IMG/VR virus record: IMGVR_UViG_3300044625_000188
Span: 1 to 26,322 of that record
Direction: 5' to 3' (one strand)
Origin: a virus
Length of the DNA: 26,322 nucleotides
Shown piece by piece: positions 2,887 through 26,210 of the stretch (positions are counted from its first letter, which is position 1; each line of letters starts with the position of its first letter). Under the pieces are notes generated by a model. That model worked only from the letters and a program-made list of their open reading frames with translations, did not search any database and was not told the DNA's origin. The translations under genes and the position numbers were made by a program.

Positions 2887-4571
2887 TGGCAACGCTTCAG
2901 GAACTTGAAAAACTTCTTACCGATATCCAGACACAACTGGATGCGATTGATTCTGCTTCTCCGTCTGCAAGCACACCGCAGGGATCTGTTGAATATCGAA
3001 ACCCTGAAACGGGCCAAGTTGAAACTGTAAAACTTGCCGACCTTGACGTTTTGCGCAAGGGGTTGTCGGAGAACAAGAAGAAACTTCAGGCTGCACTCAA
3101 ACCATTGCGTGACGCGCAAAACACTTACCAGAACGAACTGGTTGGTTTGCGTAGGGCTAAGGAAATTGCGGCGAATCCAATTACAGAATCTGCTCAGGGT
3201 TTGTCGCAAAAGGAAGCTGATTCCAATGTCGTGGCTGCGGAGGCAAAAGTCAACTCTGCTGCACGGCAGGTAACTATTGCTACGCAACGTCTGGCCTCAA
3301 CCGAAGTGCCGGTCGTTCTTGGTACAACCAAGCCGAAAGCTGCTGGTGGCCCACGCACAACCCCGCCCCGAATGAGGATGCCCGAAGAGGCCGCCGACCG
3401 AGGTGTTGTTACTGGAAAGCCGCCGACCCCGCGTGATTTGGCTGGCGGCGGTGGTGGTGGCGGTGGAGCGACCCCGCCACCGAAGCCTGGTAAGCCTGGT
3501 GAAGCGTCTCCTGGTTTGCAGCAAGAGTTTTTGACGGTTGTCAATCAGCAGTTTGGGACATCGTTCAAGACTGTCAATGAATATTTGTCGGCCAAGGGTG
3601 TCAAGGGGATGGCACCTCGAGCGAAGCGTGTTGAGCGATACAACAAGTTCATTGCCGGCAAGGAAGAAACCACGCCAGAGGGCGGTCTGACGGAACGTGG
3701 CAAGCAGATTCTCCAGCAGGAATACGGTTGGGTTTCGGCATACATCGGTATCGATCCTGACGTGGATGCGGCGATGGGTCAGTTGGCGCGAAAGGAAATA
3801 TCCGAGGACGCATTTGACGCAAAGATCCGCTCGAGCAAGTGGTGGCAGGAACGCAACGATTTCACGCGGGCATGGGATGTCAAAGAACGTACACCTGGTT
3901 CTACCGCCCAGAAGGAGATTGACGACCGCGTTCAGTCGATGAAGGATTATGCTTTGTCCACGTTTGGTGTTGTGTTGTCACCGGAGCAGCTGCGTCCGTG
4001 GGCGAGGCAGACCCTCCGAGAGGGTGCGTCTGCCCCGACCCAAGAGAACGGTGTTGCTGCCATTATCGTCAAGGGTGGCAGCCAAGGTGCGATTGACCAG
4101 TTGCGTCAGGGTGGCGTGGCACAAAGAGTCAATGACGTGAACGCCCGTTACGGCTACAACCCTGGATCGGATTTTGTCAACCAGTCCATCTCGAACATTG
4201 CGTTGGGGACAATGACCGAAGATATGTATGAGTCAAAAGTCAAGAGTTTCGTCAAGACCATGTACGGTGCAGACGTTGGCGATTTACTGGACCGAGGCTA
4301 TTCGGTTGCAGATATTTCAGAGCCGTACGTCCAGACCGCCGCACGGATGCTTGAGACAAATCCGAACATGATTGACATGAAGGACACGAAGTTCCAAAAG
4401 GCTTTGGGCATGGTGGATGCTGACGGCAAGAAGCGTCAGATGACTTTGGGCGAGTGGGAGAAAACGCTGCGTACGGACCCGATTTACGGGTGGGATAAAA
4501 CGAACCAAGCAGCAGGTTTGGCTGTTCAGGTTGGCGAGCAGATTTTGCGCCAGTTCGGAAAGGTGCAGTAA
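2886..4571 (+). CDS. Putative virion protein with coiled coils and Gly-rich linker, 561 aa
   Basis: ATG 2886 overlaps the previous stop. Residues 1-25 and roughly 55-135 are charged heptad-like helices (for example LRKGLSENKKKLQAALKPL), followed by a Pro/Thr/Gly linker that includes eight consecutive Gly (residues 187-194) and a PPPKPGKPGE stretch. From about residue 210 to the end the protein is a compact, mostly helical domain without Cys clusters or recognised catalytic residues. A coiled-coil rod joined by a flexible linker to a globular domain is common in phage internal or tail-associated proteins. It ends in TAA directly abutting the ATG of the next gene. Exact role unknown. Confidence 0.75.
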   Translation: MATLQELEKLLTDIQTQLDAIDSASPSASTPQGSVEYRNPETGQVETVKLADLDVLRKGLSENKKKLQAALKPLRDAQNTYQNELVGLRRAKEIAANPITESAQGLSQKEADSNVVAAEAKVNSAARQVTIATQRLASTEVPVVLGTTKPKAAGGPRTTPPRMRMPEEAADRGVVTGKPPTPRDLAGGGGGGGGATPPPKPGKPGEASPGLQQEFLTVVNQQFGTSFKTVNEYLSAKGVKGMAPRAKRVERYNKFIAGKEETTPEGGLTERGKQILQQEYGWVSAYIGIDPDVDAAMGQLARKEISEDAFDAKIRSSKWWQERNDFTRAWDVKERTPGSTAQKEIDDRVQSMKDYALSTFGVVLSPEQLRPWARQTLREGASAPTQENGVAAIIVKGGSQGAIDQLRQGGVAQRVNDVNARYGYNPGSDFVNQSISNIALGTMTEDMYESKVKSFVKTMYGADVGDLLDRGYSVADISEPYVQTAARMLETNPNMIDMKDTKFQKALGMVDADGKKRQMTLGEWEKTLRTDPIYGWDKTNQAAGLAVQVGEQILRQFGKVQ

Positions 4572-16783: not shown

Positions 16784-17028
16784 TGGTCAAGATCCAATCC
16801 GTCATCGGTCGCGTGTTTGCCGTGTTCGGCTCGTCGGCTCTCGCCGCCCTTGCCGGTGGTGCAATCATCAACGTCGAGTTGTGGAAGGCCGCTTGTCTTG
16901 CAGGCTTCATGGCCGCCGCCAAGGTGACCGAACAGCTCTTGAAGTTTTGGGCTGAGGACGGTGTCCTGTCGAAGGAAGAAGTTGCCATCGCCTTCGGGAA
17001 GAAGCCTGAAGTTCCGTCGGCTGAGTAA
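16783..17028 (+). CDS. Small membrane protein, holin candidate, 81 aa
   Basis: ATG 16783. Residues ~9-30 (RVFAVFGSSALAALAGGAII) and ~34-50 (LWKAACLAGFMAAAKV) are apolar and could form two membrane helices; the tail is soluble (WAEDGVLSKEEVAIAFGK). The 'WWKAALLAG...DGxLTxxEIxxAF' layout is recalled from actinophage lysis regions. First of several membrane miniproteins around the endolysin, so it may be holin, antiholin or another lysis component. Its end overlaps the upstream part of the next gene if that gene uses its earliest start. Confidence 0.65.
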   Translation: MVKIQSVIGRVFAVFGSSALAALAGGAIINVELWKAACLAGFMAAAKVTEQLLKFWAEDGVLSKEEVAIAFGKKPEVPSAE

Positions 17029-18271
17029 AGCCGTCTCGGCGGCAGCCGGTTTACTTCTTCTTCTCGTCGCAACGACGGCCAGCGCGGAGAACGTCCGCGT
17101 CACCCAGGCAACCGACTACTGGTATCAGTTTGATACCACCTCGACTTTTTCGGTGCGGACGTATGCCGTTGCCGGCTATGGGTCGGATCCGATGCTGTGG
17201 TTCTACAACGCGGATGGTCAACTTCTTGCCCAAAATGATGACTGGTACGGGTTGCAGTCTCGGCTTGAGGTGCAGGTGGAACCTGGCTGGTATCGCCTCC
17301 GAGCGGGGGTCTGCTGCGGCAACCCTGACGCATGGTGGTCTGGGGTGCAGTACGACCTAGAGACGAACGTGGAGGCTGTGGTGCCGACCACATCGCAAAC
17401 CACGACAACCGTCGAAGAGACGACGACTACTACGGAAATGTCTACAACGACAACCGAGGTGGCCACAACGACGACCGAAGAGTCCACAACGACCACCACG
17501 TCAACGACTACAACCACCGAGCCGGAGCCGAGTAGTACGCTGGCGACATGGCAGACGACGACGAGCAGCGAGCCGCTTACGAGCGAGCCATCGACTACCA
17601 CCGTTTTGCCGACATCGTCCAGCACTACGACGACACAGCCCGACCCGACCACGACGACATCGACTACGAGCCTGCCAGCCTCGACCACCTCGACGGAGCT
17701 GACTACGACCTCTACGGAGACGACGTTCCCTGCATCGGAATCATCCTCCACATCAACAACTACATCATCTCTGTCGCCGAGGCCATCGAGCAGTTCGGTT
17801 CTTTCAAGGCCATCCCCGACGACTACGACCTCACCTCCAACGACGTTGACCTCTCCGTCATCTTTGATTGCGAATGTGGCCACAGTCCCACCAAACACCG
17901 GCTTGACGGCTGTTACGGTCATACCGACCCCGACGACGACGACGATCCAGACGATCCCCCAATCGCCGCTTGAGGCGGTAGAGGTACTGTCGGTTGACGC
18001 AACCCCCGAGCAGGTTGCTGCCGCCATCGACGTGATTGCCGAGAGCCTCGACACCCTGACCGAATCCCAGTTGGATGCCATCGTTGAAGTGATTTCGGTA
18101 GCCCCGACCGAAGTCAAACGGGAGTTTGAGAACGAGGTCAACATCTTCTCGGCTGGCTTGGACAACTATGTGCCGGCGGATTCCAAGATCACGGTGGCAG
18201 AACGGCGGGTTTTGGTGGCGGTAGGGGCCGTGATGGTGGCTGCCCCAGCGGTGGTGGGTAGGCGCAAATGA
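16961..18271 (+). CDS. Secreted Thr/Ser-rich surface protein with PPC-like domain, 436 aa
   Basis: Residues ~23-42 are a signal peptide (AAAGLLLLLVATTASA, likely cut before ENV). Residues ~43-136 resemble the beta-sandwich PPC domain (DPMLWFYNADGQLLAQNDDW, YRLRAGVCCGNPDAWW). Residues ~142-330 are mucin-like Thr/Ser/Pro repeats. Residues ~335-400 are helical (TPEQVAAAIDVIAES, TESQLDAIVEVI), and the protein ends in an apolar helix and GRRK (RVLVAVGAVMVAAPAVVGRRK minus none), a possible membrane or wall anchor. Start is uncertain: GTG 16961 overlaps the upstream gene by 68 bp, TTG 16982 is an alternative. Probable role: phage-encoded envelope protein in lysis, superinfection exclusion or adhesion; unproven. 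Confidence 0.72.
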   Translation: MSCRRKKLPSPSGRSLKFRRLSKAVSAAAGLLLLLVATTASAENVRVTQATDYWYQFDTTSTFSVRTYAVAGYGSDPMLWFYNADGQLLAQNDDWYGLQSRLEVQVEPGWYRLRAGVCCGNPDAWWSGVQYDLETNVEAVVPTTSQTTTTVEETTTTTEMSTTTTEVATTTTEESTTTTTSTTTTTEPEPSSTLATWQTTTSSEPLTSEPSTTTVLPTSSSTTTTQPDPTTTTSTTSLPASTTSTELTTTSTETTFPASESSSTSTTTSSLSPRPSSSSVLSRPSPTTTTSPPTTLTSPSSLIANVATVPPNTGLTAVTVIPTPTTTTIQTIPQSPLEAVEVLSVDATPEQVAAAIDVIAESLDTLTESQLDAIVEVISVAPTEVKREFENEVNIFSAGLDNYVPADSKITVAERRVLVAVGAVMVAAPAVVGRRK

Positions 18272-19561: not shown

Positions 19562-19843
19562 ATGACAGAGTCAGAGGGGTATCCGACGGTCGTGGTGGTG
19601 TGGGCTGATGCCCATTCCGGCGCAGAGCATTGGGCTGAACTGGACACGGACGACAAGTCCGAGTACCTGGTCAAGTCGTGCGGTTTCATCATCGAAACGG
19701 AACGCGGTGGCAAGCCTGAACACATCACGCTCGCTCAGAGTTACACCCCCGACCTAGATTTTGATCACGTCTTGCACATTCCGAAAGGGATGGTGAGGCA
19801 CATCCAATTCATGGAGGCATTCACGAAGAGGTTGTCTGTCTGA
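19562..19843 (+). CDS. Conserved-type phage protein of unknown function, 93 aa
   Basis: ATG 19562. The layout 'VVVVWADAHSGAEHWAELD ... YLVKSCGFIIE ... HITLAQSYT ... HIPKGMVRHIQFM' matches a small mixed alpha/beta protein I recall from many phage genomes near early genes, where it has no assigned role. The gene stands alone between two small gaps (23 and 57 bp). Its 3' end contains the -35 part of the candidate promoter for the recombination genes. Confidence 0.75.
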   Translation: MTESEGYPTVVVVWADAHSGAEHWAELDTDDKSEYLVKSCGFIIETERGGKPEHITLAQSYTPDLDFDHVLHIPKGMVRHIQFMEAFTKRLSV

Positions 19844-24099: not shown

Positions 24100-24191
24100 A
24101 AGTTTTCGTTCGACTGTCAGTACCACCAACACATAGCTGCCGCAAGAAACGGTGGCAGCAGATCAACCTCACCTTGAAAGGGGAGCAATGA
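24039..24191 (+). CDS. Zinc-finger-like miniprotein, 50 aa
   Basis: GTG 24039 is preceded by GAGAGGGGA (24022-24030); ATG 24048 is the alternative start. The product has WVCRFCG and later THSCRKKRW, i.e. Cys-x2-Cys and His-x-Cys spaced for one zinc ion, ending in NLTLKGEQ. Its stop overlaps the SSB start (ATGA). It shares its first third with the end of the lysozyme gene in another frame. Function unknown, nucleic-acid binding likely by type. Confidence 0.65.
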   Translation: MASMANKQSEWVCRFCGVSVKVFVRLSVPPTHSCRKKRWQQINLTLKGEQ

Positions 24192-24589
24192 ATACCATCA
24201 TCATCACGGGAAACGTGACGAAGGATCCCGAGATCCGTTACACCAACAACCGGACCGCGATCTGCGTGTTCTCCGTTGCCACGTCATACGGCAAGGACGA
24301 CAAGAAGCAGACCACGTTCCATGACGTGAAGGTTTTCGGTGACATGGCCGAGAACGTCGCAGCGTCGATCACCAAGGGTGTGCGTGTCACGGTCCACGGT
24401 CGTCTCGAGAAGTCAACGTACGAACGCAAGGACGGCGGCAAGGGTATGTCGGTTGACATTGTTGCCGAGTCGGTTGCCCTCGACGTGCGGTTCCGTCCTG
24501 CGTACGCAGACCAGACCGACAACACGATGAAGCAGGTGAAGCAGCAGTTCCCGAACGCGCAACTGCTCGATGAAGAACCTCCGTTCTGA
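24188..24589 (+). CDS. ssb: Single-stranded DNA-binding protein, 133 aa
   Basis: ATG 24188 with AAAGGGGA upstream. The OB-fold is standard: MNTIIITGNVTKDPEIRYT, AICVFSVATSY, TTFHDVKVFGDMAENVAASI, KGVRVTVHGRLEKSTYERKD. The C-terminus ends DEEPPF, the acidic-aromatic tip used to recruit replication and repair partners. The linker is short compared with bacterial SSBs. It protects strands exposed by the YqaJ exonuclease and serves replication. Confidence 0.93.
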   Translation: MNTIIITGNVTKDPEIRYTNNRTAICVFSVATSYGKDDKKQTTFHDVKVFGDMAENVAASITKGVRVTVHGRLEKSTYERKDGGKGMSVDIVAESVALDVRFRPAYADQTDNTMKQVKQQFPNAQLLDEEPPF

Positions 24590-24800: not shown

Positions 24801-24962
24801 TTGTGTGAGCATTGTGGGACAGTCTCGCGGGCGTTGACCGTCTGGTCTGTTGAGGACACGGCGTTCTGCGCCTGCGACTGCCATAACGCGCGGCGTTATG
24901 ACCAAATGAACACGAAACAACGGAAGAAAGCAAGGGGAAAAGATGAAGTTCGCATACGCTGA
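24801..24962 (+). CDS. Cys-rich zinc-binding-type miniprotein, 53 aa
   Basis: TTG 24801 directly follows the previous stop. The frame is open for 53 codons and gives CEHCG at the start (Cys2, Cys5), FCACDCHNARR (Cys24, 26, 28, His29) and a basic tail KQRKKARGKDEVRIR. The cysteine placement suggests a treble-clef-like zinc site. It overlaps the next gene by 20 bp. A start at an internal ATG would lose the metal site, so TTG is preferred despite a weak ribosome site. Confidence 0.5.
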   Translation: MCEHCGTVSRALTVWSVEDTAFCACDCHNARRYDQMNTKQRKKARGKDEVRIR

Positions 24963-25248
24963 CCCGCCCTATCTCGGCAACGGGAAGCGCAGGTATGCAC
25001 CTTTCCACGAGAACGCAGGTGAGTATGACGACGTTCAGGCTCATCTTGATCTTGTAGCGCGGCTTGTCGATGAATACCCAGATGGCTGGGCGTTGTCATG
25101 CAACCCAAAAGATTTGCGGTGGGTGTTGCCGGCATTGCCTGACACGGTGCGAGTTTGTGCATGGACCAAGACGTTTCACCAGATCCGCGTCAATGTTTCT
25201 GTGCAGTACGCATGGGAACCCGTGGTTCTGGGGGGGGTCGGGACATGA
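24943..25248 (+). CDS. DNA methyltransferase, N-terminal part (DPPY), frame broken at G8
   Basis: ATG 24943 with AAGGGGAAAAG upstream. FAYADPPYLG carries the catalytic DPPY (motif IV) of amino-group DNA methyltransferases, followed by a domain with LVDEYPDGWALSCNPKDLRW and WTKTFHQIRVNVSVQYAWEP. The frame ends at TGA 25246-25248 just after eight consecutive G (25230-25237), before the SAM-binding motif appears. The rest of the enzyme is in the -1 frame. See the next entry. Together they make a ~167-residue enzyme with motif IV before motif I, the order of beta-type or minimal phage methyltransferases. Confidence 0.78.
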   Translation: MKFAYADPPYLGNGKRRYAPFHENAGEYDDVQAHLDLVARLVDEYPDGWALSCNPKDLRWVLPALPDTVRVCAWTKTFHQIRVNVSVQYAWEPVVLGGVGT

Positions 25249-25448
25249 GGCATCGCAGGCCAATGACTCGAGACTGGATGGCCTGCCCTATCGCCATGCG
25301 AAAGGGTCTGCCTGGTGCGAAGCCGGCCGCGTTCTACAACTGGGTGTTGGACATGATCGGCTGGGAGGAAGGCGATGTGATTGATGATCTGTTTCCTGGC
25401 ACGAATGGTTTAGCGGAAGTGATTAGTCAAAGGGGATCCAAAGAATGA
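25245..25448 (+). CDS. DNA methyltransferase, C-terminal part with SAM-binding motif
   Basis: ATG 25245 overlaps the previous TGA as ATGA. The 67-residue product contains GAKPAAFYNWVLDMIGWEEG and VIDDLFPGTNGLAEVI; the 'KPxxF...LD...GDVxxDLFPGTN' stretch is the SAM-binding motif I (DxFxGxG type) that the upstream piece lacks. Removing one reading-frame step at the G8 tract joins the two parts without gap. Whether it is translated by -1 frameshifting, by restart at the ATGA, or only looks split because of a one-base error in the G run cannot be decided here. Could be a pseudogene. Confidence 0.72.
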   Translation: MRHRRPMTRDWMACPIAMRKGLPGAKPAAFYNWVLDMIGWEEGDVIDDLFPGTNGLAEVISQRGSKE

Positions 25449-25825
25449 TCGAAAGACCTAGATGGATGCGTCGGGGAAATTGTGTCGGGGTTGCCGGCAC
25501 GGTGTTCTTTCCAGACCTGGTGGGGATCAGCGACAAGGTGGCGTTTCGGGAGGCCCGAGCCTTGTGCGAAACCTGCGAAGTGCAAAAGGAATGCCTCGAG
25601 CAGGCGATGCGGAACGAACTCGAGCAGCCGCGCAGGTTCGGGATGTGGGGTGGCCTGACACCGAAGGAACGGCGCGGTCTACAATCTGAGCGTGACGCGC
25701 AAGCGGCGAGGGAATTGCAGCGAATCCGAGTGCAACCTGCCCGCCAAGGGCAAGGGACTCTGCAATCGTCACTACTTGAGGCTTTACCGGACCCAGAACT
25801 TGGAGCGTTCGAGGGAAGCTGCTAG
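25445..25825 (+). CDS. WhiB-family Fe-S transcription factor, 126 aa
   Basis: ATG 25445 in an ATGA overlap. Four iron-sulfur cysteines are at 13, 41, 44 and 50 (C-x27-C-x2-C-x5-C), followed by the WhiB turn motif GMWGGLTPKERRGL (67-80 region). WhiB proteins bind the host sigma factor sigA region 4 and tune transcription; phage copies such as TM4 WhiB interfere with host WhiB and exclude superinfection (established for TM4, inferred here). Residues after ~82 overlap the HNH gene by 134 bp and lie outside the conserved domain, so the true functional end is near 25690. Confidence 0.87.
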   Translation: MIERPRWMRRGNCVGVAGTVFFPDLVGISDKVAFREARALCETCEVQKECLEQAMRNELEQPRRFGMWGGLTPKERRGLQSERDAQAARELQRIRVQPARQGQGTLQSSLLEALPDPELGAFEGSC

Positions 25826-26210
25826 ACGCTACGCCGAGACGCACCGTGAACAGCGTCAGGAATACAAGCGTTTGTATAGGGCCGAGAATCGGGACAAGAT
25901 CCGTGCCGACATGGCTGCGTACCGTAAGCGACACCATGATCGTGTTCATGCTGGGCGTATGCGCCGCGACCGAAGGCTGAAAGAGAACGGGGTATTCTTG
26001 GTTACTGAGGCTGACATTCGCAGGCTACGCCGGCAGCCCTGCTACATCTGTGGTCTGCCTGCCGACACCATCGATCACCGTGTCCCGATAGCCAAGGGTG
26101 GTCGGCATTCGGTCGGGAACCTCGAGGCTTGCTGCCGATCCTGCAACTTTTCCAAGCGTGATGTCCTGCTAGTGCAGTTTCTCAGGAGAAAAAGAAACCC
26201 CGCAGCCTGA
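25692..26210 (+). CDS. HNH endonuclease with N-terminal zinc motif, 172 aa
   Basis: GTG 25692. The N-terminus has CSESECNLPAKGKGLCNRHY, a Cys4/His zinc knuckle common in phage HNH proteins, then a long charged helix (~40-100, many Arg). The nuclease core is CYICGLPADTIDHRVPIAKG with HSVGNLEACCRSCNFSKRD: HNH residues in DHR...N and two CxxC pairs (PCYIC, CCRSC) for structural zinc. Possible homing endonuclease or packaging nuclease; a stand-alone HNH far from terminase favours homing. Its 5' third is coded within the WhiB frame tail. Confidence 0.87.
   Translation: MTRKRRGNCSESECNLPAKGKGLCNRHYLRLYRTQNLERSREAARRYAETHREQRQEYKRLYRAENRDKIRADMAAYRKRHHDRVHAGRMRRDRRLKENGVFLVTEADIRRLRRQPCYICGLPADTIDHRVPIAKGGRHSVGNLEACCRSCNFSKRDVLLVQFLRRKRNPAA

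Follow-up and report, generated by a model that had tools for sequence, protein, structure and literature searches.

A poly-G tract at the frame break of a phage adenine methyltransferase gene, interpreted as a candidate phase-variation switch

Is a methyltransferase gene that is split between two reading frames at a run of eight G a decaying gene, an assembly error or one position of a switch? The question is raised by a locus in the window, the whole stretch of 26,322 nucleotides of viral DNA analysed here (IMG/VR record IMGVR_UViG_3300044625_000188). The answer that we favour, with a probability of roughly 0.7, is that the run is a poly-G contingency (phase-variation) tract in a phage methyltransferase gene, and that the window would carry its OFF form.

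The frame break and the predicted enzyme

The G8 tract, our proposed slipped-strand switch, occupies positions 25230-25237 of the plus strand and no other G run in the window exceeds six. On the same strand, an ATG frame at 24943-25248 encodes the N-terminal 101 aa of the methyltransferase, including motif IV (MKFAYADPPY...WEPVVLGGVGT*), and stops at a TGA directly past the run (25246-25248). The C-terminal part lies at 25238-25448 in the -1 frame (RDMRHRRPMTRDW..., with the motif I-like DDLFPGTNG), which reads ...GGGRDMRHRRPMTRDW...DDLFPGTNGLAEVISQRGSKE* and stops at 25446-25448. Among the best 80 of 271 viral homologues, the two closest (L001 and L002, from the phage genomes G001 and G002, with no difference between them in 1,522 bases) have 97% protein identity, a G9 run and an intact frame of 168 aa, to which the N-terminal frame of the window is 97% identical. 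The G8 thus divides a 168-aa phage DNA methyltransferase of the N6-adenine type, and a step of -1 rejoins the two halves exactly. The coordinates, the G8, the two frames and their ATGA overlap, as given in the original prediction, were all confirmed in the sequence, and its reading of the gene as a methyltransferase broken at the G run, with halves joined by a -1 step, is supported. Since 0.74 runs of at least eight G or C are expected by chance in the window (first-order Markov model), the length of the run alone is not the point; what goes beyond chance is that the gene changes frame exactly at the G8 and that homologues carry such runs at the corresponding codons.

The product is predicted to be a small orphan DNA amino-methyltransferase with the motif order of the beta class. 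The intact relative was modelled (pLDDT 87, pTM 0.84), and a fold search with this model returned the N6-adenine methyltransferases M.BceJIV (TM 0.67-0.69 by query), CcrM, MboIIA and RsrI, and also METTL3. In the homologue alignment DPPY is invariant and the DDLFPG-type motif strongly conserved, and the predicted protein combines an N-terminal DPPY, a C-terminal SAM motif and a Rossmann-like methyltransferase fold, as in the beta class of amino-methyltransferases. The likeness to M.BceJIV, CcrM, M.MboIIA and M.RsrI is one of predicted fold and motif order, whereas identity in the structural matches is 12-17% and the phage enzyme, with 168 aa, is much shorter. The cut-off of 22 of the Pfam family MethyltransfD12 (PF02086) was not reached by the window frame (16.1 bits) or by the intact relative (15.6 bits), the adenine methyltransferase matched no family of PHROGs or NCBIfam, and the fold search alone gave relatives in the PDB, phmmer having found none. 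As the break sits between the DPPY and the SAM-binding motifs, the truncated product should be inactive.

The surroundings are those of a tailed phage. A gene for a single-stranded DNA-binding protein is located upstream (24188-24589, plus strand; PHROG 44, E 3e-35 for the frame 24152-24589), and downstream, on the same strand, a WhiB-like regulator gene (25445-25825; Pfam Whib E 4e-16, PHROG 472 E 3e-20), whose ATG overlaps the methyltransferase stop as ATGA, is followed by a gene for an HNH endonuclease (25692-26210; Pfam HNH E 3e-8, PHROG 1035). The remainder of the window encodes a major head protein, a RecE-like exonuclease, an annealing protein and a RusA-like resolvase. From the WhiB-like gene, the host of the phage is presumably an actinobacterium. 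A predicted protein at 16961-18271 has a long low-complexity stretch rich in Thr and Ser (TTTTS repeats).

The G run in close relatives and distant homologues

A gapped DNA pattern searched in IMG/VR retrieved three records with this allele family, namely those of L001 and L002 (G9) and G006 (IMGVR_UViG_3300044846_000733), which has G8. G006 (37,357 bp) is circularly permuted with respect to the window and differs from it by 3 mismatches over 26 kb, which all fall within 13 bases (19750-19762). The G8 is therefore present in two assemblies, although these could share reads.

This bears on the possibility that the real run is G9 and the gene intact, the one-base error of sequencing or assembly that the original prediction had offered as its alternative. 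Homopolymers are prone to such errors, and two contigs of a related phage, from the sample of G002, meet exactly at the second G9 run of a C5-cytosine methyltransferase gene, where one ends and the other (reverse complement) starts (L224 and L096; IMGVR 3300006875_000717 and _000096), as if the assembler had met mixed tract lengths there. By contrast, G006 has a separate IMG/VR identifier, another contig start and mismatches elsewhere, and shows the same G8, with the reservation on reads made above; other lineages are broken at the identical site, and the longer runs of relatives (G10) were assembled in frame. We consider an error improbable, given the G8 of G006 and the similar breaks of other lineages.

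Comparison with the intact relatives places the break in DNA of recent common origin. Between the window and L001, the codon changes upstream of the tract were synonymous in 30 cases and non-synonymous in 4, and those downstream of it in 6 and 1, respectively. The divergence from G001 is a mosaic, around 17% at 24952-25175 and 3-4% at 25176-25474, and the tract therefore lies in a recently shared segment; the sharp change inside the methyltransferase gene suggests recent recombination. An ON allele of the window's own population was not found in IMG/VR, nor was an ON/OFF pair inside one near-identical population, the closest pairs differing by about 4-6% of the DNA around the gene.

The same codons carry long G runs in far more distant genes. 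The tract corresponds to the x-G-G codons of WE[PA]V-L-x-G-G-R, where in most homologues the first residue is H, Y, F, W, R or M and the Gly codons after it are mixed. Runs of 8-10 G, as lengths of assembly consensuses, are found at these codons in homologues of 58-77% identity (G10 or G9 in those of 58-60%), with twelve loci at G10, two at G9 and further ones that have W or R followed by G8. All nine distinct runs of at least ten G or C in some 577 kb of non-redundant fetched DNA are at this site; some of the loci in this DNA had been picked by their G-run pattern, while most G10 loci had come earlier via protein similarity. Of the Gly codons outside the site, 10.8% are GGG, and the 11 Gly-Gly-Gly tripeptides at the site are all written GGG GGG GG[G/T], in all-G runs of 9-10. 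The two main G10 clades agree at only about one quarter to one third of their fourfold-degenerate sites, and a comparison of eight tract genes left 1 of 35 such sites invariant versus 3 of 3 tract codons (p ~2e-5 if sites are alike). These data point to a tract whose conservation exceeds what the protein sequence and codon use can account for. The protein tree requires 6-8 changes of tract state, and some of the G10 populations found in several samples have the same tract length throughout. In cultured phages there are only distant homologues (<60% identity), none of the five examined having a G run at the site, and a tract-bearing motif pattern gave 7 chance matches in 84,980 bacterial and archaeal genomes, no methyltransferase among them.

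Breaks at the tract occur in five lineages and in both directions. The window and G006 (G8), L101 (G9) and L102 (G8) are one G short and need a -1 step, and L118 (A+G10) and L223 (A+G9) are one G over and need +1; the sequences of L102 and L118 end shortly past the tract. The frame changes with one base, from G8 OFF in the window to G9 ON in L001 and L002, and from G9 OFF in L101 to G10 ON in its relative L106, in such a way that the site shows both an in-frame tract whose length shifts the frame and natural length variation to either side, as contingency loci do. A break between the halves was found in 5 of 20 distinct tract-bearing sequences versus 0 of 83 tract-free ones (p = 1.8e-4), the breaks of L118 and L223 coming from scans that required a G run. 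With only the loci retrieved by the downstream half as query, a query that does not favour intact genes, the figures were 3 of 15 versus 0 of 43 (p = 0.015). The downstream halves of L102 and the window differ by 16 synonymous and 1 non-synonymous codon changes, and those of L101 and L106 by 5 and 2. Judged by these substitutions, the out-of-frame halves are still under coding constraint and have not decayed, and the OFF state would be recent or transient.

The main rival is plain decay, in which a single slippage event took one G from a G9 and inactivated the gene in this phage, the run being a mutational hot spot that is not selected for switching. A single base separates the G8 of the window from the G9 of its relatives, IMG/VR holds no ON allele of its population, and loss of the gene is tolerated: in the cultured Xanthomonas phage PBR31 (L218, 2992-3500) the homologous methyltransferase is frame-broken at a tract-free site, so simple gene loss also happens. 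(The broken gene of PBR31 is annotated as a short hypothetical protein.) However, decay leaves the maintenance of the run unexplained, that is, all-GGG codons kept despite saturated synonymous sites and long G runs concentrated at one codon site, and it has to face several independent lineages broken in both directions with downstream halves that remain constrained. It is therefore regarded as unlikely, though clearly less so than an assembly error.

The possibility that a G8 gene yields the full-length enzyme, through programmed -1 ribosomal frameshifting or transcriptional slippage on G_GGG_GGG, was also weighed. The in-frame heptamer is present (CT[G GGG GGG]), a -1 step rebuilds the exact junction sequence of L001, and low-level leakiness is plausible. 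Against it, the need for a shift is not conserved, as 98 of 102 distinct homologues are read through without one; two OFF alleles (L118 and L223) need a step in the opposite direction; and the RNA downstream shows no unusual folding (z = 0.59 and -0.63). The -1 slip by which the halves were originally thought to be read through is thus poorly supported, and we give this explanation very little credence. A short stretch just upstream of the junction folds better than its shuffles (z = -2.7).

The least credible explanation, to which we assign next to no weight, is that of two coupled polypeptides, produced by restart at the ATGA (25245-25248) and reassembling into an enzyme, as had been envisaged. 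A G-rich stretch upstream of the ATGA could act as a ribosome site, and the incomplete OFF frame of L102 also ends in an overlapping ATGA. The overlap nevertheless lies in GAC ATG AGG, which encodes a conserved Asp-Met-Arg; its ATG is an internal in-frame Met in the intact L001 and L002, and for this reason the overlap is judged incidental. The OFF alleles L101, L118 and L223 have no ATGA restart and, apart from the window's population and L102, the roughly 100 homologues are either one chain or a break with no restart.

Proposed phase variation and known switching systems

Phase variation, already suggested in the original prediction, fits well with a tract that recurs across the homologue alignment and with frame toggling by one base in five lineages. 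In this reading, the Gly-rich loop that separates the halves is encoded by codons forming a continuous stretch of G, in which slipped-strand mispairing during replication would gain or lose one G. In the window lineage G9 would give the full-length enzyme (ON), and G8 a product truncated ahead of the SAM motif (OFF), in such a way that phages with and without the enzyme would be produced within one population. The benefit could be bet-hedging, with some hosts restricting unmodified DNA and others DNA that is methylated. Switching within a population, activity of the enzyme and the benefit are what we infer from the alleles described above. Against this reading stand the failure to find an ON/OFF pair inside one near-identical population, tract lengths that are assembly consensuses, the constant length in several samples of some G10 populations, the lack of the tract in most homologues, the tract-free break of PBR31, and the dependence of the L118 and L223 breaks on scans for a G run.

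The source study for polyG tracts in receptor-binding proteins of Campylobacter phages is reportedly that of Sorensen et al. 2021, Cell Rep 35:109214. Hypermutable polyG phase variation of these proteins is described in two papers that cite this study (PMC11868660; PMC10579305), and the likeness to our locus is that the length of a phage poly-G run sets the frame and gives mixed phage populations; they differ in that the Campylobacter genes encode a receptor-binding protein with switching shown in culture, whereas the present ones encode methyltransferases known from sequence alone. Bacterial methyltransferases are also switched by simple repeats, such as ModM of Moraxella (PMC6902483) and those with tracts in H. 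pylori (PMC12003011). The bacterial phasevarions resemble the phage gene in having a DNA methyltransferase under the control of a simple repeat, but the bacterial phase-variable enzymes are longer and belong mostly to restriction-modification, in contrast to the small orphan enzyme of the phage. No report of poly-G switching in phage methyltransferases was found in the open-access literature.

A wider proposal, for which we see about even odds, is that uncultivated tailed phages keep poly-G contingency tracts in several methyltransferases, such as the adenine-type and C5-cytosine enzymes that are neighbours in G001, and so hedge their methylation state, as a phage counterpart of the phasevarion. 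If true, each population would continually make particles with different methylation states, against both types of restriction. Phages are usually described as having or lacking a protective methyltransferase; with a switchable gene, one population would have both states and could meet opposite restriction preferences without new genes. Poly-G at fixed codons of phage methyltransferases is a signature whose frequency could be determined from metagenome reads already available. Phage methyltransferase genes that look broken in databases may be a single slip short of working.

Cytosine methyltransferase genes of related phages

In G001 a C5-cytosine methyltransferase gene (PF00145) lies between the gene for the single-stranded DNA-binding protein and that for the adenine methyltransferase, directly upstream of the latter, and it is missing from the corresponding place in the window. 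In L097, which is also G001, this C5 gene spans about 2949-4440 of the reverse complement and is divided among three frames by two G9 runs, at 3752 and 3908. Among 80 C5 homologues, two positions repeatedly have runs of G8-G11, one ahead of SETL/QRDA and the other ahead of VSPTLNAF, and in the genes with such runs (seven loci serving as examples) the conserved parts are mostly in different frames. One further phage, L117 (IMGVR 3300027971_000198), combines a G9 in its C5 gene (position 12940 of the reverse complement) with an in-frame R+G8 in the adenine methyltransferase. The extension of the switch to the C5 tracts is suggestive only, because those genes carry further frame breaks. The variable region of the C5 proteins resembles shuffled modules, such as SFTPSSHA..GVGTLRANGGD, FSHTQGLDAQPSEIA..PTLR, DYKGVGNQYV and RVYDDEITPCLKNRMGTGGNN.
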